Source: a virus. Taken from it: a DNA stretch of 44,015 nt. Below, piece after piece: positions 9,112 through 43,601 of this stretch. The stretch lies in the IMG/VR virus record IMGVR_UViG_3300025864_000025, positions 1 to 44,015 of that record; one strand, written 5' to 3'. Under the pieces are notes generated by a model. It had not been told where the DNA came from. It searched no databases and worked only from the letters and a program-made list of their open reading frames with translations. Numbering within the stretch: position 1 is the stretch's first letter; each line of letters opens with the position of its first letter. The position numbers and the translations under genes were made by a program.

Positions 9112-9419
9112 CTGTCATAGACGTTGTGACCACCCTTCCCCGCTGCGTGTCCTGTGACCATCCGATGCGTGGTTCTCGGGCTTTCGCAGCGGACTACCCT
9201 GGGTCGCGCATTATGAGCGGGAAAGGGATCTGCAAGACGTGTGCACGCATCTCCCGAGAGGAACTTCATCCCGAGAACAAACCCGTTCAGGACAATAGCT
9301 GGCGCTTCATGCACTACCGGTGCATCCGCTGTGGCATTGACGTCTGGACAGAGGGCGCCGCGTGCACGGACTGCCGACGGTCTGATTCAGTCCTCGTGAA
9401 GAAGTGGACAGTCGCATAG
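9108..9419 (+). CDS. Zinc-ribbon-like small protein
   Basis: A 103-residue protein with CVSC (about residue 13), CKTC, CIRC and CTDC pairs, giving two likely zinc ribbons separated by about 30 residues. The ATG at 9108 overlaps the previous stop in the form ATGA; an upstream ATG at 9093 is less likely. Zinc ribbons in small phage proteins often contact nucleic acid or host RNA polymerase, but no specific role can be assigned. The 3' end of the gene runs into the promoter-like element at 9412. Confidence 0.65.
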   Translation: MTVIDVVTTLPRCVSCDHPMRGSRAFAADYPGSRIMSGKGICKTCARISREELHPENKPVQDNSWRFMHYRCIRCGIDVWTEGAACTDCRRSDSVLVKKWTVA

Positions 9420-11194: not shown

Positions 11195-11324
11195 TCTCGG
11201 TCAAAAACCCACTAAAATCGTCAAAAACTTTCTCAGAGATCGAATCAAGTATTAGTATAGGACTAATACTCATAGTGGGTTTACCAAAGAGTTTTGGCGA
11301 GAATTAGTGGGTTTTTGACCGAGA
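11195..11324. repeat. Nested inverted repeats, possible origin or regulatory structure
   Basis: The outer arms 11195-11215 and 11304-11324 are perfect 21-nt inverted repeats (core AAAAACCCACT/AGTGGGTTTTT). Inside lies a perfect 9-bp pair, AGTATTAGT (11248-11256) and ACTAATACT (11262-11270), with an ATAGG loop. TCAAAAAC occurs twice in the left half and AGTGGGTTT twice in the right half. The block is AT-rich in a GC-rich genome and lies wholly between the helicase stop and the HNH ribosome site. Confidence 0.85.
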
Positions 11325-12238: not shown

Positions 12239-12740
12239 TAAGCATCACTGGGTCAACTACAGTGATGAGAAGCTGGACCGGGCCTACGTCGCGAACATGG
12301 CGGCACAACGCGGCACAGCACTCCATGATCTGGCGCGTGATCTGATTCGAATGGGAGTCAAACTCCCTCGCACTCCGAAGACGATCAACATGTATGTCAA
12401 CGATGGGATTGGATTTCGTATGGTGCCAGAACAGGTGCTGTACTACTCGCCCAACGCGTTTGGCACTGCTGACACGATCTCGTTCCGCAAGGACTGCCTT
12501 CGTATCAGCGACTTGAAGACTGGGATCACACCCACTTCGATGCGCCAATTGATGGTGTACATGGCGTTCTTCTGCCTGGAGTACCGGGTCAAGCCTAGTG
12601 AGATTGCGGCTGAACTTCGGATCTATCAGAATGATGAGGTCAAACTCTGCATCCCGGAGGTTGATGAGATCTTGCACATCATGGATCGCATCATCTCGTT
12701 TGACAAGCGGATCAACACCATGCGAGAGGAGGACCTGTAA
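12174..12740 (+). CDS. PD-(D/E)XK exonuclease-like protein
   Basis: Up to 188 residues. Motifs, numbered from the ATG at 12174: RGTALHDLA (H51), FGTADTISF (D100), ISDLKTG (D113, K115), and MRQLMVYMAFFCLEYRV (Q125, Y129). This H-D-DxK-QxxxY set is that of RecB/Cas4-type nucleases acting on DNA ends. The start is uncertain: 12174 overlaps the VRR-NUC gene by 65 bases with a poor ribosome site, and a TTG at 12207 just before EGFHAFLS is a good alternative. The stop overlaps the next ATG by one base. It probably works with the helicase and VRR-NUC in recombination or DNA-end processing. Confidence 0.8.
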   Translation: MCSMRFTRHSELEGFHAFLSASKHHWVNYSDEKLDRAYVANMAAQRGTALHDLARDLIRMGVKLPRTPKTINMYVNDGIGFRMVPEQVLYYSPNAFGTADTISFRKDCLRISDLKTGITPTSMRQLMVYMAFFCLEYRVKPSEIAAELRIYQNDEVKLCIPEVDEILHIMDRIISFDKRINTMREEDL

Positions 12741-15451
12741 TGAGTGAGGAATTTCTTGCGCACATCGGCGTTCTCCATCGTTCGGGTCGGTACCCTTGGG
12801 GAAGTGGAAGAACTCCGCACCAGCGCAATCGCATGTTCATCGACACGGTGGAACAGCACCACCAAGATGGCATGAGCGAATCGGAGATTGCCAAGGCGTA
12901 TGAGTTGACCACCACCCAACTTCGCGCGCTCAAGACCATCGCAAAGACAGAACAACGTCAGGCCAATGTTGCCATGGCTCTGCGACTCAGAGAGCCTCCA
13001 CGATCGCTTTCAAATGTGGCAATTGGCGCCAAGATGGGCATTCCTGAGTCGTCTGTTCGTAGTCTCTTGAACCCAGCGTTGCAAGAGAAGAACGACATCC
13101 TTGCAACAACGGCCTCCATGCTGCGTGACAACATTCAGAACTTGGGTGCGATTCAGGTCGGCATTGGTGTGGAAACACACTTGGGCATCAGTAAGGAGAA
13201 ACTCGCTACTGCAGTTGCTGTGCTGCAGGAAGAGGGTTACGCCTTCCACAAGATCCAGACAGACCAGTTGACCACAGGTAAGAAGACCATCATCAAGGTC
13301 TTGGCACCTCCCGGGACAACCTATGTGGATCTTGTCAAGGACACGAGTCAGATACACTTGATGAAGCAGGTGTCGTCCTATTCTGAAGATGGAGGGCGTA
13401 CTTTCGAGTCCATTAACTCGACGCCAACCAACTTTAGTTCCAAGCGATTGGCCATTCGCTACAAGGAACAAGGTGGCGATCAAGCAGATGGAATCCTCTT
13501 CATCCGTCCTGGTGTTCCTGACGTGTCTCTTGGCGGCGGGCTCTACAAGCAGGTTCGTGTTGCTGTTGATGGCACGCACTACATCAAGGGCATGGCCATG
13601 TACAAGGATGACCTTCCCGCGGGCATCGACATCGAGTTCAACACGCCAAAGCATGACACAGGCAACAAACTCGAAGCACTGAAGCCTCTCAAGTCGGACA
13701 AGGATCTTCCTTTTGGGTCTATTGTTCGGCAGTCTCACTACATCGATGCTTCTGGAAAGAGGAAACTCTCAGCGATAAACATCGTCAACGATGAGGCTGA
13801 TTGGGATGAGTGGTCTCGTAATCTTGCGTCTCAGATGCTTTCTAAGCAGAAGCCAGAGTTAGCCAAGCAGCAATTGGCGATGACTTTTGAGCGCAAGAAG
13901 TTACAGTTTGACGAGATCATGTCGCTTACCAATCCGGCGGTCAAGAGAAAGATGCTTGAGGAATTGGCAGACAGTGCTGATTCAGCAGCCATGCATCTCA
14001 AAGCAGCCGCTCTTCCTGGTCAGAAGACGCACGTCATTCTGCCTTTCAGCAGCCTCAAGCCAGATGAGATCTACGCGCCGAACTACACAGATGGCACGCA
14101 TGTCGTTCTCATTCGATACCCCCATGGTGGGATCTTCGAGATTCCGGAACTGGTGGTCAACAACCGAAGCAGGAAGATCAAAGCCATCATAGGCAACGCT
14201 GTGGTTGCTGTCGGCATTCACCCAAGTGTTGCTGAGAAACTCTCTGGTGCTGATTTTGACGGTGACACCGTTGTGGTCATTCCCAATCAGCCACGTGGGT
14301 TGCACTCTATTCAGACTTCGGATTCTCTTGATGGGCTCAGAAACTTTGATCCAAAGAGGGCATACCCGAAGTATGAAGGCATGAAGGTCATGACTAGTGA
14401 TGGCACCCAACAGCAAATGGGTAACATCACAAATCTGATCACAGACATGAACATCAAGGGCGCCACACACGCCGAACTTGCTCGTGCTGTTCGCCATTCC
14501 ATGGTAGTGATTGACGCTGAGAAGAAGGAGCTCAACTACAAGCAATCAGCCAAAGATCATGGCATTGCAGAACTGAAAGCCAAGTATCAGGCGAAACCTG
14601 ATGGTTCTGCTGGCGGGGCGTCAACTCTAATCTCAAGAGCCGCTTCTGAAGTGCGTGTTGATCAGCGAAAGCAACTGTCAGGCGCAAGAGGCATTAACCC
14701 TGTCACAGGCGAAAAGGTGTACGAGTACTCGGGAAAGACGTACCCGAAAAGGACTACAAGCAAGCGTACAGGAATAGTCACAGAACGCACCATCAAAAAG
14801 ACAGTGATGTCTACAAGGATGGCAGAGACTCCTGATGCGCGCACTCTTGTGTCTTCTAATGGCGGGAAAGTCATAGAGAGAGTCTATGCTGATCACGCTA
14901 ATCGTCTCAAAGCCCTAGCCAACACTGCACGTAAGGAGACTCTAAATATAAAATCAACCCCATACAGTCCTTCTGCAAAGACCGCCTATGCAAAAGAAGT
15001 GGCCTCTTTGGCGCAGAAGCTAAATACTGCCCAGAGAAACGCCCCCCTTGAGCGTCAAGCCCAACTCGTAGGCAAGTCGATTGTCAAGGCTAAGTTAGAT
15101 GACAATCCAGGAATGTCGTCTTCTGAACTCAAGAAGGTTCAAGGTCGTGCACTACTAGATGCACGTAATGCCTTGGATGCCAAGAAACAGAAGATTGAGA
15201 TTACCAAGTCTGAGTGGGATGCTATTCAAGCAGGCGCCATTACTAACAACCGGCTTACTGAGATCCTAAGGCATACGGATCCAGACAAAGTCAAAGCGTT
15301 GGCCCTGCCACGCATCAACCCTGTTATGAGTAAGGTCATGCTAACACGTGCCCTATCTATGCAGGCATTGGGCTACACACAGGCAGAGATCTCTACACAA
15401 CTGGGCATACCTGCTACTACAATAGGTAGTGCTCTTATGAAGGAAGGTTAG
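12740..15451 (+). CDS. Double-psi-barrel RNA polymerase-like protein (YonO/QDE-1-like)
   Basis: A 903-residue protein. The key block GIHPSVAEKL then SGADFDGDTVVVIP (DFDGD at 505-509) parallels the bacterial beta' block with HPLVCAAFNADFDGDQMAV. The three Asp residues are the metal ligands of RNA synthesis in multisubunit RNA polymerases and in single-chain YonO/crAss-type phage enzymes. Preceding blocks LKAAALPGQKTHVILPFSS and YAPNYTDGTHVVLIRYPHGG probably belong to the barrel region. The N-terminus has FLAHIG (5-10) and SGRYPWGSG (15-23), then helix-turn-helix-like segments near 45-65 and 95-115. A further one, GYTQAEISTQLGIPATTIGS, ends the protein. It starts on the previous stop codon. Polymerase activity is inferred from the signature. 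The N-terminal peptide resembles one in the structural protein at 19522. Confidence 0.78.
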   Translation: MSEEFLAHIGVLHRSGRYPWGSGRTPHQRNRMFIDTVEQHHQDGMSESEIAKAYELTTTQLRALKTIAKTEQRQANVAMALRLREPPRSLSNVAIGAKMGIPESSVRSLLNPALQEKNDILATTASMLRDNIQNLGAIQVGIGVETHLGISKEKLATAVAVLQEEGYAFHKIQTDQLTTGKKTIIKVLAPPGTTYVDLVKDTSQIHLMKQVSSYSEDGGRTFESINSTPTNFSSKRLAIRYKEQGGDQADGILFIRPGVPDVSLGGGLYKQVRVAVDGTHYIKGMAMYKDDLPAGIDIEFNTPKHDTGNKLEALKPLKSDKDLPFGSIVRQSHYIDASGKRKLSAINIVNDEADWDEWSRNLASQMLSKQKPELAKQQLAMTFERKKLQFDEIMSLTNPAVKRKMLEELADSADSAAMHLKAAALPGQKTHVILPFSSLKPDEIYAPNYTDGTHVVLIRYPHGGIFEIPELVVNNRSRKIKAIIGNAVVAVGIHPSVAEKLSGADFDGDTVVVIPNQPRGLHSIQTSDSLDGLRNFDPKRAYPKYEGMKVMTSDGTQQQMGNITNLITDMNIKGATHAELARAVRHSMVVIDAEKKELNYKQSAKDHGIAELKAKYQAKPDGSAGGASTLISRAASEVRVDQRKQLSGARGINPVTGEKVYEYSGKTYPKRTTSKRTGIVTERTIKKTVMSTRMAETPDARTLVSSNGGKVIERVYADHANRLKALANTARKETLNIKSTPYSPSAKTAYAKEVASLAQKLNTAQRNAPLERQAQLVGKSIVKAKLDDNPGMSSSELKKVQGRALLDARNALDAKKQKIEITKSEWDAIQAGAITNNRLTEILRHTDPDKVKALALPRINPVMSKVMLTRALSMQALGYTQAEISTQLGIPATTIGSALMKEG

Positions 15452-15734: not shown

Positions 15735-15905
15735 AAGGGAGGGGGAGGGGGCCTCGCAATTTCGACCCCCCCCTCTGCATCGCCGCCCTCCTCGAAAATC
15801 CTCCGGCGGGGCAAAAACTGGGAGCAATCCCGATCGAACCCCGAGGGTAGTATCCAGAAGGTCTCAGAAGAGGGATGAACAACCACCCAAGTAGGCACAA
15901 CCGGT
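15735..15905. other. G-tract/C-tract intergenic region, possible cos or packaging site
   Basis: Two G-runs broken by an A (15741-15751) are followed 14 bases later by eight consecutive C (15766-15773). GAGGGGG can therefore pair with CCCCCTC. A second GC-rich block (GCCGCCC, then CCTCCGGCGGGG) follows near 15781-15811. It lies between the early/replication genes and the small terminase with its adjacent HNH gene, where cos sites of HNH-containing phages are often found. No nick site can be read from sequence. An in-frame extension of the preceding gene also crosses it. Confidence 0.35.
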
Positions 15906-16010
15906 CCCGATACTGTTAAACAGAGCGCCAGTTTCTGGCAATGACACCAAGGATTCGTCACCCTTGGCTCTTTTCACGAGGGGATTGGCGCTCTGTTTAA
16001 CAGTGTCGGG
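15906..16010. repeat. 25-bp inverted repeat with internal hairpin
   Basis: The arms 15906-15930 and 15986-16010 (core GTTAAACAGAGCGCCA and its complement) differ at one position, a G-T pair in RNA. Pairing extends about 3 bp further outward. The 55-base interior holds CCAAGG/CCTTGG. No target-site duplication is evident at the flanks, and CCTTTCT follows. It could be a strong RNA hairpin, a recombination site or the remains of a small mobile element. It sits just upstream of the SGNH cassette. Confidence 0.85.
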
Positions 16011-16036
16011 GCCTTTCTAAGGAATGAGGTTCCGCA

Positions 16037-16213
16037 ATGCCCACAGAACCGATTTACCCGCCAAGAATTGAACATCAAAAAACAATCAATGACATCATTG
16101 ACGCGCGCATTGCGCTCCATATGTCAGACGGTTATTTTGTAGTCGATAACCTGGACGTCTTAGATAACCTCGATGGTTCGTTCACTATTCGGCAAGGAGT
16201 AGGCCATGTCTAG
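16037..16213 (+). CDS. Small protein related to tail-tube C-terminal repeat
   Basis: A 58-residue frame starting MPTEPIYPPRIEHQKTIND, with AAGGAATGAGG upstream of the ATG. Its C-terminus VLDNLDGSFTIRQ matches the end of the tail-tube paralogue at 27934-28869 (VIDNGDGSFTIQ), both in protein and in DNA. In the paralogue a TAA follows; here the frame runs 5 codons further and overlaps the hydrolase start. It may be a remnant of a duplicated tail gene that now serves as a translated leader for the SGNH gene. Confidence 0.55.
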   Translation: MPTEPIYPPRIEHQKTINDIIDARIALHMSDGYFVVDNLDVLDNLDGSFTIRQGVGHV

Positions 16214-16233
16214 AATTGAAAGCTTGACAACTG
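16157..16233 (+). repeat. Duplicated tail-fibre boundary, copy 1
   Basis: These 77 bases align without gaps to 28831-28907 with 9 mismatches (about 88% identity). They span the end of one reading frame, the ribosome site, and the first 9-10 codons of a gene starting M(S/A)RIESLTT. Confidence 0.9.
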
Positions 16234-17609
16234 CCGGAATTCACGCCCTTCGTGACGAGACGTTGGCGCAGTTAAGTGCCACCTATACCCCGTCCCCCGG
16301 CCCGGCGTGGGCGACCCGCGCAGCGCACTTCGACCCGACCACCGGGGCGTACAACCTCAACGCCCGCACCCTCGCCCGCGTTCGTGAGGCGAAGGCCCGC
16401 GCGGTCGGTGGCGCCGGGTCGCTGCACGTCTCTGTGCTCGGCGACTCCACCACCATGCAGGCCACCTACACCGACTCCGCAGCCGTCCAGGCCTGGCCCG
16501 CACGGATGCGTGACCACCTAATCCGCACCCTCGGGCTGACCAGTGGCGGCACCGGCCTGATGGGCATGTGGGAGCAGTTCGGCGGGTGGGACTTCTCGCC
16601 CACCACGTCCCCCGTCTGGCCGCACCTCACGTGGAACGAAGTGTCGGGACAGGGCGAACTGCAGAAGACCGGCGCCGGGATCTACGGGATCTACGGCTAC
16701 AACTGTGTCGGAATCTTTTCGGGCGCGTCTGCCCCCTTCACGTCGGTGCAGCTCAACCCGGTCGGCAGCCAGATGGTCGACGAGATCTGGGTCTACCTGC
16801 TCGCCGCCGGCGGCGACATTCTCGTCGATGTCACGGACGGCACCACGACCCACAAGTTCCAGATCGCTGGCTACTACGGCAAGACCGTCACGCCGCAGAG
16901 CGGGTACACCGCCGTCGCGTGCGAGGCGGGCTACGTCCAGTCGTCCGACCCGGCGACCGCCGGTGGCATCTGTGTCGCCAAACTCGTCGTCCCCGTGCAG
17001 GACAACTGGACGGCTAGCGTCCGCAGCACCCCGTCCGGCGTCGCGTATCTGACCATGCTGGAAGCGCGCCTCTCGACCGGCACCCTGCGCGTGTCGAATC
17101 TCGCACAGGGCGGGCTCTCCCTGTCCAGCATCCTCACGGCCAACGCCGAGAGCACGGGCAACGGCGGGATGCCTCAGGGCATCGACACTCCCGGCGCTGA
17201 CCTCGCGATCATCGCGCTCGGTCTCAACGACTGGCAGACCCACGGGTCCGTCTCCACCTTCAAAGCGAACCTGACCACCCTCGTCGCACGGCAGCGCTTC
17301 GTCGGCACCACGGGCGACACGGACACCGGCACCGGAGCCGCAGGCGACGCGCTACTCGTCATCCAGCCGACCCCCGACCTGACACGGCTGCCCGCCACGG
17401 GTGGCAACGTGCCGCCGTTGGCCGACTTCTGGCGCGCGATGTACGAGGTGGCCGACGAGCAGGACGTGGCGCTGCTCGACCAGTCCTGGCGCTGGACCGA
17501 CTACACCACCAGCGCGCCCATGTACCGGGCCGACGACCCGATCCACGGCAACGAGATCGGCCACGCCGACCTCGGGATCAGCATCGGGTCGGTGCTCGCC
17601 CGGATCTGA
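16206..17609 (+). CDS. SGNH/GDSL-type hydrolase, probable receptor-binding or depolymerase protein
   Basis: A 467-residue protein. The first ~22 residues (MSRIESLTTAGIHALRDE) match the start of the fibre gene at 28880. The catalytic domain shows SVLGDSTTM (Ser81, block I), LGLNDW (Asn341, block III), and DDPIHGNEIGH (Asp444, His447, block V). An oxyanion Gly block probably lies around GGLSLSS. This is a serine esterase fold that often deacetylates or cleaves surface glycans. A beta-rich domain is inserted between blocks I and III (about 150-280). After codon 22 the GC content jumps well above the neighbours, and GTTAAGTGCC occurs at both ends of the high-GC part, suggesting acquisition. It is separated from the other tail genes by the terminase/head module. 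Confidence 0.8.
   Translation: MSRIESLTTAGIHALRDETLAQLSATYTPSPGPAWATRAAHFDPTTGAYNLNARTLARVREAKARAVGGAGSLHVSVLGDSTTMQATYTDSAAVQAWPARMRDHLIRTLGLTSGGTGLMGMWEQFGGWDFSPTTSPVWPHLTWNEVSGQGELQKTGAGIYGIYGYNCVGIFSGASAPFTSVQLNPVGSQMVDEIWVYLLAAGGDILVDVTDGTTTHKFQIAGYYGKTVTPQSGYTAVACEAGYVQSSDPATAGGICVAKLVVPVQDNWTASVRSTPSGVAYLTMLEARLSTGTLRVSNLAQGGLSLSSILTANAESTGNGGMPQGIDTPGADLAIIALGLNDWQTHGSVSTFKANLTTLVARQRFVGTTGDTDTGTGAAGDALLVIQPTPDLTRLPATGGNVPPLADFWRAMYEVADEQDVALLDQSWRWTDYTTSAPMYRADDPIHGNEIGHADLGISIGSVLARI
16271..16280. repeat. Direct repeat at left edge of high-GC segment
   Basis: GTTAAGTGCC here recurs at 17616-17625, just after the hydrolase stop codon. The two copies bracket the high-GC part of the gene (about 1.33 kb). 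Ten bases can match by chance, but the coincidence with the composition change is notable. Confidence 0.6.
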
Positions 17610-17615
17610 CCCAGC

Positions 17616-17633
17616 GTTAAGTGCCCGCTTAAC
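17616..17633. repeat. Right direct repeat and hairpin after hydrolase gene
   Basis: GTTAAGTGCC (17616-17625) is the second copy of the repeat at 16271. With the following bases it forms the hairpin GTTAAG-TGCCCG-CTTAAC. A similar GTTAA...TTAACTA hairpin follows the spike gene near 30208, so both receptor-binding cassettes end alike. Confidence 0.6.
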
Positions 17634-17654: not shown

Positions 17655-17999
17655 ATGGCGGTCGGCCGTAAACACACAGAAGCACCGAGGACGCGTCGAC
17701 CGCCTGCTACCACGCCCGAAGGTCGAGAAGACCAACTGATCGCTGCGGCAGTGGATTTAGCAGAGAGACAACTTCTAGATGGCACTGCGTCTGCTCAGGT
17801 GCAAACGCACTATCTCAAGTTGGGTTCAACAAGAGAGAAACTCGAGCAAGAACGTCTCCGACGAGAGAACATTCTCCTAGCCTCGCGTGCGAGCGCTATC
17901 GAGTCGGCGGCAAGAGTTGAAGAACTCATGAAGGACGCGATCAACGCCTTCCGAGGTTACTCTGGCCAAACCCCGGAGCAAGAGTCCTATGAGAATTAG
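17655..17999 (+). CDS. Terminase small subunit-like protein
   Basis: A 114-residue helical protein behind a strong AAGGAGGTGAACT site. The sequence TPEGREDQLIAAAVDLAERQLLDGTASAQVQTHYLKLGSTREKLE, in segments, resembles small terminase or DNA-packaging proteins I recall from phages of Gram-positive bacteria. The long amphipathic helix after residue 60 (EQERLRRENILL) suits oligomerisation. It is followed directly by an HNH endonuclease and, 2.7 kb later, the large terminase, which supports a packaging role in recognising DNA. DNA binding is inferred. The stop overlaps the next ATG by 11 bases. Confidence 0.7.
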   Translation: MAVGRKHTEAPRTRRPPATTPEGREDQLIAAAVDLAERQLLDGTASAQVQTHYLKLGSTREKLEQERLRRENILLASRASAIESAARVEELMKDAINAFRGYSGQTPEQESYEN

Positions 18000-18413: not shown

Positions 18414-19139
18414 GTGACTTTCTCTTCCCTCATCTCTGGCACGATTCCTCACTGCGACAAGTGGAACCCTCGACCAGGCAAGATCACTCGTGCTGTCCAG
18501 CACCACTGGGCGGACATTACCATGGGTGGCGAGCAGAGTCTGGCAAACCCTAGGCGCAGGGCTTCGGTGAACTACCTCATCCACAACGACGGCGTCATCA
18601 TCGGGCAAGTTCCTGAGGAGTTCCGTCCCTGGACCACCGGTAGTTCTTCGGCGGACAATCCGTCGATCACTTTCGAGGTCCAGAATGAGACTGGGGCGCC
18701 TGAGTGGAAAGTGTCCACCGCAGCACGCATCTCGATCGCTCGACTTCTCGCCGACATCGCAACACGCCGCAACTTCGGATCACTCAACCGAATCAACTAC
18801 CGAGGTCACCGCGAGTTCGCCGCTACGGCGTGTCCCGGGCCGTACCTCTATCCGCGGCTTCAGGCCATCTGTGACGCAGCGAACGCCATCAAGAACGGCG
18901 TTGACCCAGCACCCAAACCCCGCCCCACCCCAAGCCCACAACAGGAGGACGACGACATGAGGATCTTTCGCCGCAAATCAGATGGCGCCGTGGTTCTCGC
19001 TGCCCCGGGTCACGTCACGGTGCTCAACATGGCGCAGTGGCAGACCTGGACGAACCTCGGCGTAGCGACGCAGGAGATGGACGACTATCCGCTCGAGGTA
19101 GTTCTCGCGTCCTTGCGCCCGACTGCGCCGCAGGTCTGA
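18414..19139 (+). CDS. N-acetylmuramoyl-L-alanine amidase endolysin
   Basis: A 241-residue lysin with a GTG start behind AAAGGAG. The amidase_2/PGRP-type domain covers residues 1-165: zinc ligands H30 (in QHHW), H132 (GHREF) and C140 (TACPG), with NYLIHNDGVIIGQ between them. It would cut the bond between the glycan and the peptide of the cell wall. A Pro-rich linker (about 168-178) leads to a C-terminal domain of about 60 residues (MRIFRRKSDGAVV and following) that probably binds the wall. An in-frame ATG with GGAGG at 18957 could make that domain separately. There is no signal peptide, so release depends on a holin; the holin gene is far away at 40152. A lysin within the terminase module is unusual. 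Confidence 0.88.
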   Translation: MTFSSLISGTIPHCDKWNPRPGKITRAVQHHWADITMGGEQSLANPRRRASVNYLIHNDGVIIGQVPEEFRPWTTGSSSADNPSITFEVQNETGAPEWKVSTAARISIARLLADIATRRNFGSLNRINYRGHREFAATACPGPYLYPRLQAICDAANAIKNGVDPAPKPRPTPSPQQEDDDMRIFRRKSDGAVVLAAPGHVTVLNMAQWQTWTNLGVATQEMDDYPLEVVLASLRPTAPQV

Positions 19140-27933: not shown

Positions 27934-28869
27934 ATGGCAAGAGTGATCTGGGGTGCTCCCGGCGAACGTTTCTACGAGTCTGGTCTAGACCGTGGTGTTC
28001 TTTACCCCTCTGTTGGCCCTGGGGTTCCTTGGAACGGTCTCGTCTCGGTGCAAGAAGTAGCTTCAGGGGGAGAACCGACTGGCTTCTACGTCGACGGGGT
28101 CAAGTACTCGAACACAGCGTCAACAGAAGAATTCGAGGCCACACTCGAGGCGTACTCGTGTCCATTAGAGTTTGGTCTTTGCGATGGAACAATTTCGATC
28201 TCGAACGGGCTCTTCTTGGGCCATCAACCTCGACGAAGTTTTGGTTTGGCCTATCGGTCACAGATTGGGAACGATCTTGATGACTCGAACCAGGGATACA
28301 AGATTCATTTGATTTACAACGCCCTGGCCAAGCCAACCGATCGAACACACAAGTCGTTCAATGACTCTGTGGAACCGTCCATATTTAGTTGGGGGATCAC
28401 AACAACGCCGCCAACGATTTACGGATTCCGGCCAACTGCGCATTTCATGATCGATACAAGAATGGCAGACAGTACGCGTTTGTCTGACATCGAGAACATC
28501 TTGTATGGATCCGCAGAATCGACGGCAAGACTTCCAACACCTGCTGAACTTCTTGAAATGTTTGCCGGGCTTGTTGCTCTGAACATTGTCGTTGTCGGCG
28601 ACGGTTCGTACATTGCTGAAGGAACTACGGTTACTTTGCTGTCGCCAGGTTACTTCGCAATCGATCACCCAAGCGTTGTAGACAACGGCGATGGTTCGTT
28701 CGCCATTCTTGACACATTAATTAGTTTCGTTGCTCTGGACGTTGTCGTTGACGGTGACGGTTCGTTCACTGCTGAAGGAACCGCGGTTGACCTTATGGAT
28801 CAAGATACCTTTGCGGTTGATGATCCGAACGTCATAGATAACGGCGATGGTTCGTTCACTATTCAGTAA
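27934..28869 (+). CDS. Second tail-tube-like protein with C-terminal repeats
   Basis: A 311-residue paralogue of the major tail protein: RFYESGLDRGVLYPS, PWNGLVSVQEVASGGEP, FGLCDGTISISNG and QPRRSFGLAYRSQIGND align with the 26448 gene block by block. In place of the Ig-like domain it has two tandem repeats (about residues 214-258 and 266-311), each with a V-V-V-x-G-D-G-S core and ending DNGDGSFAI or DNGDGSFTI. A base of the tail tube carrying fibres, or a minor tube subunit, would fit. The fibre gene follows 10 bases later. The last repeat is copied at 16037-16213. Confidence 0.75.
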   Translation: MARVIWGAPGERFYESGLDRGVLYPSVGPGVPWNGLVSVQEVASGGEPTGFYVDGVKYSNTASTEEFEATLEAYSCPLEFGLCDGTISISNGLFLGHQPRRSFGLAYRSQIGNDLDDSNQGYKIHLIYNALAKPTDRTHKSFNDSVEPSIFSWGITTTPPTIYGFRPTAHFMIDTRMADSTRLSDIENILYGSAESTARLPTPAELLEMFAGLVALNIVVVGDGSYIAEGTTVTLLSPGYFAIDHPSVVDNGDGSFAILDTLISFVALDVVVDGDGSFTAEGTAVDLMDQDTFAVDDPNVIDNGDGSFTIQ

Positions 28870-28907
28870 GGAGTAGACCGTGGCTAGAATTGAAAGTTTG
28901 ACAACTG
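28831..28907 (+). repeat. Duplicated tail-fibre boundary, copy 2
   Basis: Aligns to 16157-16233 with 9 mismatches in 77 bases. It is probably the parental copy, because here it lies among tail genes and the upstream frame ends cleanly with TAA. Confidence 0.9.
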
Positions 28908-29245
28908 AGCGTATTGAAGAATTGATCGCTGCCTCGGTAGTACCGTTTGGCACAACTTTGGCCACGGTTGTCCAAGGCAACGATGCCCGTGTTGTCAACG
29001 CTGTTCAAAACACTTGTACGATCAACGGGCACGCGTTGTCGTCGTCGATAACGCTCGACGCGGCAGACGTTGGCGCAGTTGCAAGTCCTCTTGATTACGC
29101 GAGCGCTGCACCAGGTAGTATGTTTGCTTGGTACAGCGCCACATCTCGGCCGTCCTCGCGGGAAGATCTTTGCTTCAACTTCTTCTGTTCTGCCGATCCG
29201 GTGGCAGTCATGGTGGTCACTATGGACAACTGGTTCCAGAGATGA
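28880..29245 (+). CDS. Tail fibre-type adaptor protein
   Basis: A 121-residue protein with a GTG start behind AAGGAG. The N-terminus MARIESLTTERIEELIAAS is shared with the SGNH hydrolase at 16206. Next comes a fibre-like segment with INGHALSSSITLDAADVGAV, a motif common in phage fibre stalks. The C-terminal ~45 residues contain Trp and Phe clusters. It overlaps the spike gene in an ATGA junction. Together the two could form one fibre, the short protein anchoring the spike to the tail. Confidence 0.65.
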   Translation: MARIESLTTERIEELIAASVVPFGTTLATVVQGNDARVVNAVQNTCTINGHALSSSITLDAADVGAVASPLDYASAAPGSMFAWYSATSRPSSREDLCFNFFCSADPVAVMVVTMDNWFQR

Positions 29246-40478: not shown

Positions 40479-40504
40479 CGCGGGAGATACATGGGTCATA
40501 GTGA
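40478..40504 (+). promoter_or_regulatory. Phage promoter-like element, copy 3
   Basis: ACGC at 40478 (variant of TCGC), ACATGG at 40489, then GTCATAGTGA. Downstream GACCC can pair with GGGTC around the TATA-like part. It overlaps the holin stop codon and drives the gene at 40527. Confidence 0.75.
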
Positions 40505-40526
40505 GACCCTCTTGAAAGGAGAGCCC

Positions 40527-40829
40527 ATGTTCAAACGCAAGAAGCCAGTCCCTGACGACCTCGACGATGCCATCCACGACGCCCACGCCTTCCTCAAAGG
40601 TGCGACCGACGGCTCCGATGAGTACACGAAAACGGTCGACCAGCTCGTCAAGCTCTACAAGATGAAGGACTCCCAGGAGCCCCGCAATCGCGTGAGCAAA
40701 GACGGCCTGATCGCCGCTGCCGCGTCTGTCGGTTCCGTCGTCCTCATCCTCCTGTTCGAGGGTGTGGGCCGTGGAATCATCACGACCAAGTCGCTGGGCT
40801 TCTCGCCCAAGCCGAAGAACCCGCGCTAA
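40527..40829 (+). CDS. Small membrane protein, conserved in actinophages
   Basis: 100 residues from ATG 40527 with GAAAGGAGAG upstream. A charged N-terminal half (VPDDLDDAIHDAH, DEYTKTVDQLVKLYKMKD) is followed by VSKDGLIAAAASVGSVVLILLF as one membrane segment and the end ITTKSLGFSPKPK. I recall this layout in small uncharacterised actinophage proteins. It is the first gene of the small-gene cluster and has its own promoter-like element and a long hairpin after it. Confidence 0.75.
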   Translation: MFKRKKPVPDDLDDAIHDAHAFLKGATDGSDEYTKTVDQLVKLYKMKDSQEPRNRVSKDGLIAAAASVGSVVLILLFEGVGRGIITTKSLGFSPKPKNPR

Positions 40830-40843
40830 CCAGCAAGACCCTC

Positions 40844-40895
40844 AGAACGTAGAGGCCATGTGTGGACCTAAAAACCCACATGGCCTCTACGTTCT
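40844..40895 (+). terminator. Long hairpin, probable terminator
   Basis: The arms 40844-40862 and 40877-40895 are perfect 19-bp complements (core CGTAGAGGCCATG). Two further G-C pairs follow beyond a bulged T. The loop contains ACCTAAAAA. No T-run follows directly, so processing or bidirectional termination is possible. The right arm leads into ACATGGGTTGTAAAAT, a degenerate echo of the promoter-like element. Confidence 0.65.
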
Positions 40896-40947
40896 ACATG
40901 GGTTGTAAAATTTTCCCGAGGGGGTCAAATCCGTGGAACAAAACAAC

Positions 40948-40974
40948 TCGCGAGAACTACATGGGCTTTAATGA
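40948..40974 (+). promoter_or_regulatory. Phage promoter-like element, copy 4
   Basis: TCGC at 40948, ACATGG at 40959, GCTTTAATGA following. It precedes the gene at 41002. Confidence 0.78.
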
Positions 40975-41001
40975 GACCACCCCCTCTAACAAAGGAATAC
41001 C

Positions 41002-41208
41002 ATGTCGAAGACCACTTCGCTCAAGGTCTTGAAGTTCGCCCCCGGCGTACACCACTTCCACTCCCACGAGGACTACCAGCGCTACTACAAGCACCGGCCA
41101 TCCATCAAGGAGTTGCTGCGGTTCGCGCCCAACGGCGACATCAAGATCGAGATCACGAGGCACCTCCTCGGTGTGTACTACACCTACAAGATCGTGTCCG
41201 TCTCCTGA
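41002..41208 (+). CDS. Small basic hypothetical protein
   Basis: A 68-residue protein with CAAAGGAA before the ATG. It is rich in His, Tyr and Lys (GVHHFHSHEDYQRYYKHRP). The C-terminal half is strand-rich (DIKIEITRHLLGVYYTYKIV). It is soluble, with no recognised family. It is a single-gene unit between promoter copy 4 and the terminator at 41213-41240. Confidence 0.68.
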   Translation: MSKTTSLKVLKFAPGVHHFHSHEDYQRYYKHRPSIKELLRFAPNGDIKIEITRHLLGVYYTYKIVSVS

Positions 41209-41212
41209 GACT

Positions 41213-41240
41213 GAGCCCCCAACAAGGGCTCTTTCTTTTC
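41213..41240 (+). terminator. Rho-independent terminator
   Basis: GAGCCC (41213-41218) pairs with GGGCTC (41226-41231) around CCAACAA. TTTCTTTTC follows. Promoter copy 5 starts within the T-run. Confidence 0.88.
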
Positions 41241-41265
41241 GCGAGGGATACATGGGTCATAATGA
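41239..41265 (+). promoter_or_regulatory. Phage promoter-like element, copy 5
   Basis: TCGC at 41239, ACATGG at 41250, GTCATAATGA following. It directly abuts the preceding terminator and precedes the 43-residue gene at 41292. Confidence 0.8.
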
Positions 41266-41291
41266 CACCCCCTCAACAGAACGGAACCGAA

Positions 41292-41423
41292 ATGACAAAC
41301 AACATTCGCCCATCCGATGCAGCCAAGGCCGGCCTGTCCGTCACCATCCTTGTGGCGCTCATGCTGCTCCCCGTGCTCATCATCGCGTGGGCGGCCAAGT
41401 GGATCTATCGATCCCGCCGTTAG
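41292..41423 (+). CDS. 43-residue single-pass membrane protein
   Basis: MTNNIRPSDAAKAGLSVTIL continues into one membrane helix (about residues 14-36, ending AWAAKWIYRSRR) with a basic C-terminus, indicating N-out/C-in. The ribosome site is weak (ACGGAACC), but the promoter-like element upstream, the good membrane pattern and the structured terminator downstream support a real gene. It resembles toxin-sized phage membrane peptides; its function is unknown. Confidence 0.62.
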   Translation: MTNNIRPSDAAKAGLSVTILVALMLLPVLIIAWAAKWIYRSRR

Positions 41424-41436
41424 GGCGATCAAATCT

Positions 41437-41513
41437 GAAGGCCCCAGGAATGGGTAAGCGATCGGCAGGCTTAACTGTCCCGACCGCCGAAGTTCCTGGG
41501 GTCTTCTCTTTTT
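41437..41513 (+). ncRNA. Structured 3' RNA / terminator A
   Basis: GAAGGCCCCAGGAA (41437-41450) pairs with TTCCTGGGGTCTTC (41493-41506), 14 bp with one G-T. The 42-base apical region has TCGGC/GCCGA pairing. TCTTTTT follows. The loop is far larger than those of the simple terminators nearby. The GCCCCAG/CTGGGG-TCTTC stem recurs at 41719-41794. Confidence 0.7.
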
Positions 41514-41514
41514 G

Positions 41515-41541
41515 TCGCAGGATTTACATGGCGCTTAATGA
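41515..41541 (+). promoter_or_regulatory. Phage promoter-like element, copy 6
   Basis: TCGC at 41515, ACATGG at 41526, CGCTTAATGA following. The first bases after it (GAAGA) begin a non-coding structured segment. Confidence 0.8.
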
Positions 41542-41622
41542 AGACCCATATCTTGTACCCGCCCAACTCCTGAGAGTGGCTGATACTGCATCCGATTGCA
41601 AAGATACGGCTCTTCACTTTTT
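41540..41622 (+). ncRNA. Predicted small structured RNA B
   Basis: It starts at the G of TAATGA. GAAGA (41540-41544), CC and TATCTT pair with AAGATA, GG and TCTTC (ending 41615), with two mismatches. Inside are two short hairpins: ACTC-CTGA-GAGT (extendable by CC/GG past a bulged A) and TGCA-TCCGAT-TGCA. This is a three-way junction. CACTTTTTG ends it like a terminator. It has a promoter-like element, no open frame with a ribosome site, and about 80 nt length. Confidence 0.62.
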
Positions 41623-41624
41623 GC

Positions 41625-41651
41625 TCGCAAGAATTACATGGGTCTTAATGA
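41625..41651 (+). promoter_or_regulatory. Phage promoter-like element, copy 7
   Basis: TCGC at 41625, ACATGG at 41636, GTCTTAATGA following. It starts 3 bases after the T-run of RNA B. Confidence 0.8.
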
Positions 41652-41800
41652 AGAATGGAACGTAAACCGTCCGTGACACCCTTGTCGCCGATTGTAAGAA
41701 TCCATCTTCAAATGGAGAGCCCCAGAATGTTTTGGACTACGCTTGATCGATTCACCATCAAGATCGCCTCTAGTTCCTGAACGCTGGGGTCTTCATTTTT
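41650..41800 (+). ncRNA. Predicted small structured RNA C
   Basis: The 5' stem GAAGA-TGGA (41650-41659, one bulged A) pairs with TCCATCTTC (41701-41709). The 3' stem CCCCAG (41720-41725) pairs with CTGGGG (41784-41789) and is followed by TCTTCATTTTTT. The 5' end GAAGA and the 3' stem copy features of RNAs B and A. There is no ribosome site and no convincing reading frame over ~150 nt between two promoter-like elements. Confidence 0.6.
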
Positions 41801-41803
41801 TGT

Positions 41804-41830
41804 CCGCAAGAATCACATGGCTCATAATGA
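41804..41830 (+). promoter_or_regulatory. Phage promoter-like element, copy 8
   Basis: CCGC at 41804 (variant), ACATGG at 41815, CTCATAATGA following. It precedes the gene at 41860. Confidence 0.78.
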
Positions 41831-41859
41831 CATCCCCTACGCTTTGAAAGGACACTACC

Positions 41860-42102
41860 GTGACCGAGAACCAGCCTCAGGAGCCCGTCACCGTTGTCTT
41901 GCTCCAAGACTCCCCCACCACCAAGCAGCAGCTCACGTCCGCCGCGATCCAGATCGGTGCCGCACTCGCGGTCCCCGTCTTGTTCGTCGTCGGCCTCGGC
42001 GCTGTCGGTGTGGTGAGCTCCGTCAAGGACAAGATCGCGGCGCGTAAGCTCCGGAAGCACGGACCCGACCTCACCGTCGTCCCTCTGAACCCGGAGGACT
42101 AG
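41860..42102 (+). CDS. Single-pass small membrane protein
   Basis: An 80-residue protein with a GTG start after GAAAGGA. A polar N-terminus (TENQPQEPVTVVLLQD) leads to a hydrophobic helix about residues 28-52 (QIGAALAVPVLFVVGLGAVG), then a basic segment (KDKIAARKLRKHG). The function is unknown. It resembles in build the proteins at 43602 and 40527, with short N-terminal Pro/Gln regions and one membrane span. The terminator follows 8 bases after the stop. Confidence 0.7.
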   Translation: MTENQPQEPVTVVLLQDSPTTKQQLTSAAIQIGAALAVPVLFVVGLGAVGVVSSVKDKIAARKLRKHGPDLTVVPLNPED

Positions 42103-42109
42103 AACGTCT

Positions 42110-42141
42110 GGCTACCCCTAAAAAGGTAGCCTTTCGTTTTT
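42110..42141 (+). terminator. Rho-independent terminator
   Basis: GGCTACC (42110-42116) pairs with GGTAGCC (42125-42131) around the loop CCTAAAAA. TTTCGTTTTTC follows. Confidence 0.92.
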
Positions 42142-42143
42142 CT

Positions 42144-42170
42144 TCGCACGAAACACATGGGTCTTAATGA
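42144..42170 (+). promoter_or_regulatory. Phage promoter-like element, copy 9
   Basis: TCGC at 42144, ACATGG at 42155, GTCTTAATGA following. GACC downstream mirrors GGTC upstream of the TAAT core. Confidence 0.8.
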
Positions 42171-42197
42171 CATGACCCTACTCCGAAAGGAAATCTC

Positions 42198-42311
42198 ATG
42201 AACAACCAAAAATACGGCCTCTTCCGCTTCCTGGTTGACTGTGTTCTCACGGTCATCACCGGAGGCCTCTGGCTCATCTGGGTGTTCGTCCGCGAGATCC
42301 GCAAGGGCTAG
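42198..42311 (+). CDS. 37-residue membrane peptide
   Basis: The sequence MNNQKYGLFRFLVDCVLTVI, then TGGLWLIWVFVREIRKG, is one hydrophobic span ending in basic residues. CGAAAGGAAAT gives a good ribosome site. It is enclosed by promoter copy 9 and the terminator at 42319, so it is a complete one-gene unit. Similar tiny proteins with a GGLWLIW core occur in other actinophages as I recall. A host-membrane or exclusion role would be speculation. Confidence 0.7.
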   Translation: MNNQKYGLFRFLVDCVLTVITGGLWLIWVFVREIRKG

Positions 42312-42318
42312 ACAGACT

Positions 42319-42351
42319 GGAGACCCCTAACAAGGTCTCCTTTCTTTTCTG
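42319..42351 (+). terminator. Rho-independent terminator
   Basis: GGAGACC (42319-42325) pairs with GGTCTCC (42334-42340) around the loop CCTAACAA. TTTCTTTTC follows. Confidence 0.92.
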
Positions 42352-42377
42352 CACGACCCAACCCGAAAGGTAGTACC

Positions 42378-42563
42378 ATGGACGACACTGAGGCTGAGAT
42401 TGCCTTGCTCAACGCCATCCAGCATGTCTTGGACGCGTGGCGGTTTGCCGGCATCAACCCGAACTACCACGCTCAGCAGAAGAGGGAACTCCAGAAGAAG
42501 TGGCCGGTGCTCTACAAGGCGCTGGTTGCTCTCGACCAGAAGGCTGGCGCGCCCTCGCAGTAA
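42378..42563 (+). CDS. Small soluble hypothetical protein
   Basis: A 61-residue helical protein (EIALLNAIQHVLDAWRF, QQKRELQKKWPVLYKALVAL). GAAAGGTAG precedes the ATG. There is no promoter-like element between it and the upstream terminator, so it depends on read-through or an unseen promoter. Its last codons carry the start of promoter copy 10. Confidence 0.65.
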   Translation: MDDTEAEIALLNAIQHVLDAWRFAGINPNYHAQQKRELQKKWPVLYKALVALDQKAGAPSQ

Positions 42564-42581
42564 ACACACGGGTCATAATGA
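42555..42581 (+). promoter_or_regulatory. Phage promoter-like element, copy 10
   Basis: TCGC at 42555, ACACGG at 42566 (ACATGG variant), GTCATAATGA following. CGGGTC and GACCCG (42587-42592) form a perfect 6-bp inverted repeat around the TATA-like core. Confidence 0.78.
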
Positions 42582-42715
42582 GAATAGACCCGCAAGGGTA
42601 CTGAGACACGAATGCGCAGGTCCGAACCCTGCCCAGTGTGGCGCCACGGAAAAAACAGACGCTTAACGAACTGACTTTAGTTGGGCCAGTTACCTGTTCT
42701 CATCTTTTTTCTGAG
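42582..42715 (+). ncRNA. Structured leader upstream of DUF6353 copy B
   Basis: ACCC-GCAA-GGGT gives a GNRA tetraloop hairpin near 42588-42599. GCAGG-TCCGAAC-CCTGC (42616-42632) has the exact 5-bp/7-nt form of a tRNA T-arm. GTGGCGCCAC is a 10-base palindrome (42638-42647). AACTG/CAGTT pairing and TTTTTT follow near 42669-42712. About 130 bases before the ribosome site are non-coding. It may be a regulated leader or a small RNA with its own terminator. Confidence 0.5.
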
Positions 42716-42734
42716 CCTCTTGAAAGGAGGATCG

Positions 42735-43514
42735 ATGCAGATCGGTAGCATCATCAAGGCCACGCAACTCGTGGTCAAGCACAACGCGCCGGCAATCCTC
42801 ACCGCTGTCGCAGTCGCAGGGACGATCACCACGGGACTCTTTGCGGCCAACGCTGGCGCCAAGGCATCTCGTGCCATATCCCGCGAGGAGATCCGTCATG
42901 GGCACCCCATCAGTGGGCCCGCGGAACTCACCGTCAAGGAGAAGGTCAGGATTGTATGGCCACTCTTCATGCCCGCAGTCGGGATGGGTGTCCTTACGGT
43001 CGCGTGCACCATCGGCGCGAACCACATCGGCGGACGACGCGCAGCAGCACTCGCTGGCGCATATTCGCTCTCTGAGAAGGCGTTCTCGGAGTACAAGGAC
43101 AAGGTCACTGAGACCATCGGCAAGAAGAAGGAGGAGAAGGTCCGGGACGCTGTCGCCCAGGACCAAGTCACTCGGAACCCGCCGACAACCACCGAGATCG
43201 TCATCACGGACACCCAGGACGTCGTCTGCTATGACGCCATATCTGGTCGGTACTTCACGACCAGCATGGAGAAGCTTCACGGGGCCAGGAACGACCTCAA
43301 CAAGCAGATCCTCGACGATGGGTACGCGTCCCTGAACGAGTTCTGGGATCTCCTCGGTCTCGATGGAACCACGATCGGCGAGGAACTTGGCTGGTCGTCT
43401 GACCACCTGCTCGAGCTCCACATCACCACGACGCTGGCTAAGGACGGCAAACCCTGTCTCTCGCTGGGGTATATTCGCGCTCCGGAAGCGAACTACTACA
43501 AGGCGTTTCACTGA
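42735..43514 (+). CDS. DUF6353-type phage membrane protein, copy B
   Basis: 259 residues from ATG 42735 after GAAAGGAGG. It has two membrane segments: about 15-37 (APAILTAVAVAGTITTGLFA) and about 74-95 (WPLFMPAVGMGVLTVACTIGA). GRRAAALAGAYSLSEKAFSEYKDKV follows, aligning with the same block of the 1792-2670 protein. The C-terminal domain (FTTSMEKLHGARNDLNKQIL, YASLNEFWDLLGLD, LGWSSD, LELHITTTL) is more typical of DUF6353 than copy A. The function is unknown. Two diverged copies in one small genome suggest distinct partners. Confidence 0.8.
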   Translation: MQIGSIIKATQLVVKHNAPAILTAVAVAGTITTGLFAANAGAKASRAISREEIRHGHPISGPAELTVKEKVRIVWPLFMPAVGMGVLTVACTIGANHIGGRRAAALAGAYSLSEKAFSEYKDKVTETIGKKKEEKVRDAVAQDQVTRNPPTTTEIVITDTQDVVCYDAISGRYFTTSMEKLHGARNDLNKQILDDGYASLNEFWDLLGLDGTTIGEELGWSSDHLLELHITTTLAKDGKPCLSLGYIRAPEANYYKAFH

Positions 43515-43551
43515 ACTCTCCGATGCATGCGTGAGTGACTGCTCGTAGTCC

Positions 43552-43578
43552 TCGCAAGAAACACACGGCTCATAATGA
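43552..43578 (+). promoter_or_regulatory. Phage promoter-like element, copy 11
   Basis: TCGC at 43552, ACACGG at 43563, CTCATAATGA following. It precedes the gene at 43602. Confidence 0.8.
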
Positions 43579-43601
43579 CATCCCCTACGAAAGGACCCAC
43601 C

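Follow-up and report, generated by a model that had tools for sequence, protein, structure and literature searches.

A copied tail-fibre gene start in front of an SGNH hydrolase gene near the predicted left end of an actinobacteriophage-like genome

Background

The stretch of DNA analysed here, 44,015 nucleotides from IMG/VR record IMGVR_UViG_3300025864_000025 (hereafter the window), carries a gene for an SGNH/GDSL hydrolase that begins like a tail-fibre gene and then turns sharply GC-rich, which raises the question of where the parts of this gene came from and what its product may do. A preliminary description took it for an acquired receptor-binding or surface-glycan esterase module mounted on the tail by its N-terminus, and placed it between an RNAP-like gene and the terminase, far from the tail genes.

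The virus is actinobacteriophage-like, and its genome (recorded as that of a virus, here that of a phage; 56% GC) is closed by a 127-bp exact end repeat. Its relatives are siphophages (Streptomyces phage Bilo, Arthrobacter phages Gordon and Zeina, and Gordonia phage Schwartz33), which have in common a 900-aa RNAP-like protein, a gene at the terS position, an HNH gene, an endolysin, a terminase and a capsid-protease fusion. In the window, the protein encoded by positions 12740-15451 is 903 aa long, contains a DFDGD motif, has HTH-like ends and matches a PHROG named 'RNA-dependent RNA polymerase'; for the relatives of this protein, present in 250 phage records, the usual annotation is HTH protein. 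The window also has ten copies of a 37-nt promoter-like repeat (CGCAAGAATCACATGGCTCATAATGA...), one at 9413 and the other nine in the final 3 kb (40479-43589).

The SGNH hydrolase gene and its composition

The gene (16206-17609; plus strand, as are all features below to which a strand is assigned) encodes 467 amino acids, and its identification as an SGNH hydrolase was borne out by a match to Pfam Lipase_GDSL_2 (PF13472; E = 4.8e-9, 37.4 bits against a curated cut-off of 32.9). Membership was judged by the four blocks GDS(L), Gly, GxND and DxxH, all of which are directly seen to be intact (GDS at residues 79-81, QGG at 301, GLND at 339 and DPIH at 444), and their key residues are conserved in the nearest homologue, L001. 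The protein also matches the 'tail protein' family phrog_15881 (E = 3.9e-12), and its one match among PDB sequences was YxiM (2o14; E = 4.6e-5).

The sharp rise in GC that had been described was confirmed. The high-GC part begins at about 16281, reaches 69.1% over 16281-17609 and is the richest 1.3-kb stretch in the genome; the GC content of the gene has z = 3.3, and the maximum-likelihood change points fall at 16288 and 17604. The proposed check of GC together with codon use showed the GC content to be exceptional, but GC3 and codon usage to be less so: the GC3 of 0.89 (z = 2.0) is similar to that of gene 17-625 and the capsid gene, and the codon usage is the second most deviant among the long genes, with the capsid gene close behind. 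GC3 and codon usage were rejected as proof of foreign origin, because other genes are about equally extreme; since the capsid gene is nearly as deviant in codon usage, the mosaic boundaries are a better argument for a foreign origin than composition is.

A word search found GTTAAGTGCC, which had been noticed at both edges of the high-GC part, exactly at 16271-16280 and 17616-17625 and nowhere else within one mismatch. The right copy is part of the palindrome GTTAAGtgcccgCTTAAC (half of GTTAAG-N6-CTTAAC), and a word of at least 10 common to the two 60-nt edges, which were picked after the fact, occurred in 0.5% of shuffles, so that the repeat is weak evidence for the borders of a cassette and reveals no cassette mechanism. 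We rejected its interpretation as att sites or a target-site duplication, because it is 10 bp long, the insert has no visible recombinase or transposase, and the right copy is palindromic. A search for a donor in bacterial and archaeal genomes and plasmids gave no homologue, the genomes being scanned by two short peptide patterns only.

The copied start of the fibre gene

Comparison of repeats showed that 98 nt around the start of the SGNH gene (16136-16233) duplicate the stretch where the major-tail-protein gene meets the fibre gene (28810-28907), with 82 of 98 positions identical (84%; blastn E = 2e-25) and a longest exact run of 20 nt. The other copy runs from the last part of the major-tail-protein gene into the start of the short tail-fibre gene that follows it (28880-29245), the product of which has a related N-terminus. 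The copied block, directly observed with its ribosome-binding site, consists of the last major-tail-protein codons, the Shine-Dalgarno sequence AAGGAGTAG and the opening 28 nt of the fibre gene (25/28 identical), and thus covers 70 nt upstream of the SGNH start plus the first codons. Its edges are sharp, the identity being 18/60 before and 15/38 after the block. By this DNA copy the gene has its start in common with the phage's own fibre gene, one of the features by which we judged whether it belongs with the fibres of this phage group. Adjoining the duplicated junction, the major-tail-protein gene itself has at its 3' end (28550-28861) a tandem repeat of 156 nt (71%).

The preliminary description had counted about 22 fibre-like codons. 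The copy is real, but only 28 nt, or 9-10 codons, of it lie inside the gene, and the larger part lies upstream. Between the first 22 residues of the SGNH protein (MSRIESLTTAGIHALRDETLAQ; 16206-16271), the proposed tail mount, and those of the fibre (MARIESLTTERIEELIAASVVP), 10 of 22 positions agree in the ungapped sequences; only the 9-10 N-terminal residues are strongly alike, with a weaker positional resemblance up to codon 22. Further on, an exact 16-nt match (16258-16273) to the interior of the fibre gene (29065-29080) ends at the start of the high-GC part, and was reached in none of 2000 shuffles against the fibre gene or 150 against the genome; as it lies in a different frame, it points to history rather than function.

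The 58-aa open reading frame that overlaps the gene start (16038-16214) ends with about 24 codons copied from the 3' end of the major-tail-protein gene (repeat D4), the original stop codon TAA of which reads CAA within the frame; it is possibly a remnant of recombination. Searches for homologues of the 58-aa product gave no significant match, and its interpretation as an older fibre remnant of the left end was rejected, the N-terminal matches to fibres located before terS at three loci (L179, L181 and L182) being not significant (E ~2-4).

The same duplication at the DNA level was not seen in 54 other loci, most of which end short of the tail genes. A profile made from the fibre N-termini of 14 relatives did not list the SGNH protein at E < 10; the window's own fibre was itself marginal (E ~0.03), which makes this profile a weak test for this branch.

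The cos site and the left end of the genome

Many linear contigs of relatives end about 300 bp past the RNAP gene at ...CTCTGCAT, which corresponds to window position 15780, and others begin at the equivalent of 15790. The record of Streptomyces phage Bilo ends with ...GCATCGCCGCCCT and starts with CCTATATTTTCC, where the window reads GCAT-CGCCGCCCT-CCTCGAAAATCC. From these contig ends and the Bilo record, we infer that CGCCGCCCT, which is identical in the window and Bilo, is a 9-base 3' cos overhang at 15781-15789 (strand not assigned); an overhang of this length and polarity has been published for Arthrobacter phage Gordon (PMC5513430). The mature left end would then run from 15790 and the right end would lie at 15789, which would put the RNAP and SGNH genes at either end of the DNA in the virion, with the SGNH gene as the leftmost large gene of the predicted linear genome and RNAP at the right end. 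The location between the RNAP-like gene and the terminase, far from the tail genes, is thus an artefact of circular closure across cos, and at the left end fibre-like genes are common.

Comparison of leaders showed that a sequence conserved after cos in the relatives (AAAATCCTCCGGCGGGG; 15790-15902) is followed in the window by a very stable long hairpin with a stem of about 34 bp (15903-16013; inverted repeat I1, -74 kcal/mol, z = -8.4), in which no Rfam family scored over its cut-off. In several relatives, too, the interval from cos to the first packaging gene contains very stable long hairpins, unrelated in sequence (L171:395-530, L176:885-1095, L047:11075-11190 and L043:5845-5912; z from -5.8 to -12.2 with that of the window), the folded ones having been picked for inverted repeats, which were present in 8 of the 21 leaders inspected at the threshold used. 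They may represent a leader RNA element common to the phage family. Elsewhere in the window, the interval between a helicase gene and an HNH-like gene holds a perfect 21-bp inverted repeat with an 88-nt loop (11195-11324), which has a folding energy of -61 kcal/mol (z = -8.4).

The SGNH gene is followed by a gene matching phrog_4259 (17655-17999), the leftmost gene in many relatives, which we call terS by its place. Among 31 loci joined to RNAP (one of them, L170, being the window itself), the interval from cos to terS is shorter than 200 bp in 17 and at least 400 bp in 7; among 65 contigs that start at the leader, as assigned by a loose motif test, it is short in 31 and long in 30, and under a stricter test, applied to the smaller, earlier set, the numbers were 37 short and 14 long. 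About half of the relatives have terS directly after cos, and the others hold diverse genes, many of them fibre-like. This variability was observed directly, by the proposed comparison of related phages for presence, absence or different hydrolases. For 58 proteins from long sites, a non-random set selected visually for length or a fibre-like appearance and including loci at which the left end is unproven, tail fibre families were the commonest PHROG matches, and Pfam matches included collagen, the S74 chaperone, GDSL (2) and Mtd_N. The SGNH gene also stands at a fibre locus of the group in that many left-end genes before terS are fibre-like; in one relative, L200, two such genes (284-1306 and 1638-2144) carry a fibre N-terminus that is found after the major tail protein in others. 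Two unrelated SGNH proteins occupy the site in relatives, namely that of L195 and the Gordonia phage gp3 with an Mtd_N anchor. A gp3 is present before terS in Schwartz33 and 25 other records; within the Gordonia Deejayvirinae, Schwartz33 has the Mtd_N plus SGNH gene and Conley shows none. Some left ends carry endolysin or membrane-protein genes instead, and the site is therefore variable in general, not for fibres only.

Homologues of the enzyme body

The nearest homologue, L001 (IMG/VR contig 3300030048_000052), is 57% identical over residues 19-467 with intact motifs, and its gene sits after a tail-side gene and before a minor-tail-like gene. It differs from the window gene in having its own short N-terminus, a place in the tail operon of a different siphophage, and 61% GC in a contig of 65% GC. 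The different first residues and the tail-operon place mark the enzyme body as a module in its own right, distinct from the mount. A deeper search with a 4-sequence alignment found L001 again and nothing further. The family phrog_15881 is matched by the SGNH proteins of the window, L001, Mbo2, Lilmac1015, Erutan and L195, and the N-terminal parts of the Lilmac1015 and Erutan proteins match tail or minor-tail PHROGs.

Discussion

We consider that the gene probably encodes an acquired accessory tail fibre with an SGNH esterase body, mounted via the copied N-terminus and either receptor-binding or surface-modifying, and we assign this reading a probability of about 0.68. It is supported by the 98-nt duplication together with the 16-mer that reaches the high-GC edge, by the tail-operon place of the nearest homologue and the 'tail protein' PHROG of the SGNH homologues, and by the occupation of the same site in relatives by other fibres, by an unrelated anchor plus SGNH protein, or by nothing. 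In the inferred order of events, ectopic recombination would have carried the junction of the major-tail-protein and fibre genes to the left end, where an SGNH body of another phage would have been attached to it. Through its copied N-terminal peptide (M-x-RIESLTT...), the protein might then dock on the tail where the normal fibre docks, and the SGNH body might bind a cell-surface glycan or lipid and remove acyl groups, most likely O-acetyl, during adsorption. Of the preliminary proposal, the acquired surface esterase with a putative tail mount thus stands as the best-supported reading; the stated location is misleading, and the edge repeats do not demonstrate a cassette mechanism. Counting against the fibre are the shortness of the strongly matching N-terminus and the failure of the fibre profile to find it; the arrangement is known from one contig only.

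The main rival, which we regard as unlikely, is an esterase of the lysis side with a LysB-like role, which would strip outer-envelope lipids or wall acyl groups late in infection together with the amidase (18414-19139). Its appeal lies in the neighbourhood, since the endolysin gene is the third downstream, past terS and HNH, and in the Mbo2 homologue (32% identical), which is annotated as 'LysB mycolate esterase' and is encoded a few genes after the endolysin and holin. LysB enzymes (mycolylarabinogalactan esterases), however, have an alpha/beta-hydrolase (cutinase-like) fold and not that of SGNH, and Lipase_GDSL_2 is the only Pfam match of our protein, which places it outside the LysB family. 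Nor would a lysis enzyme need a copied fibre start, and it would not be expected from homologues in tail operons or fused to tail-like N-termini, or from fibres at the same site in relatives. The placement of the endolysin upstream of the terminase in the related AM and AU Arthrobacter phages (PMC5513430) is consistent with a lysis role.

It is also conceivable that the fibre start was captured only as a source of a ribosome-binding site and a translation start, and that the product is a free enzyme altering the host surface, for instance in the exclusion of superinfecting phages. The duplication is indeed best conserved around the Shine-Dalgarno sequence and the first 28 nt and departs from the fibre beyond, but inspection by eye shows no signal peptide, the copy also brought with it the upstream end of the tail gene, which a capture for translation does not need, and the homologues are tail-associated; we thus hold this explanation to be improbable. 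An artefact, either a chimeric assembly of two phages at short repeats or a high GC content due to amino-acid make-up, is very improbable. A single contig, a GC3 that is not unique within the genome and short edge words would allow it, but the exact runs (20 nt in the 98-nt repeat, 16 and 10 nt at the edges) are short for assembly k-mers, the frame stays open, and the change points in GC fall at the ends of the gene.

More tentatively, the interval from cos to the first packaging gene could be an exchange site for spare receptor-binding proteins throughout this widespread family of RNAP-bearing cos siphophages, and the present phage could have refilled it by duplicating the docking end of its resident fibre, with two different fibres then competing for or sharing one docking site; we see this as possible rather than probable. 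If the mounting is confirmed, the interval between cos and terS would be a predictable position at which to seek host-range genes across hundreds of actinobacteriophages, whose genes of this kind are annotated only as hydrolase or hypothetical. The locus is a readable example of a possible route to an additional host-surface enzyme, with the docking end of a fibre copied beside a foreign enzyme at a genome end.

Among known genes, gp3 of Schwartz33 (Kenoshavirus) comes close in arrangement and belongs to the same genome family, with RNAP at the right end, the order terS-terminase-capsid fusion, and a left-end gene before terS that joins a tail anchor to an SGNH domain. It differs in its Mtd_N anchor, in an overall identity of about 18% and in the presence of further genes between it and terS; it is annotated as 'hydrolase', and its homologues also as 'hyaluronidase' or 'tail fiber protein'. 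Gene 033 of Rhodococcus phage Mbo2 and gp34 of Arthrobacter phage Lilmac1015 have an SGNH body about 30% identical and in the same PHROG, with other N-termini and other genome positions. In coliphage G7C (gp63.1) and in the receptor-binding proteins of Klebsiella prophages, which were compared with the window gene by description, an SGNH esterase forms the fibre body and is attached N-terminally (PMC13123978, PMC6872550). These act on Gram-negative hosts with O-acetylated LPS or capsule, and their esterase activity has been demonstrated (PMC13123978). Attachment of receptor-binding proteins through a short, conserved peptide at the N-terminus is known from K1-5 and KP32-type phages, a hepta- or undecapeptide serving this purpose in K1-5 (PMC6872550). 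Anchor swapping and SGNH receptor-binding proteins are thus already known (PMC6872550, PMC13123978), and the interest of the present case lies in a gene start that can be traced to the phage's own fibre and in the position of the gene close to cos.
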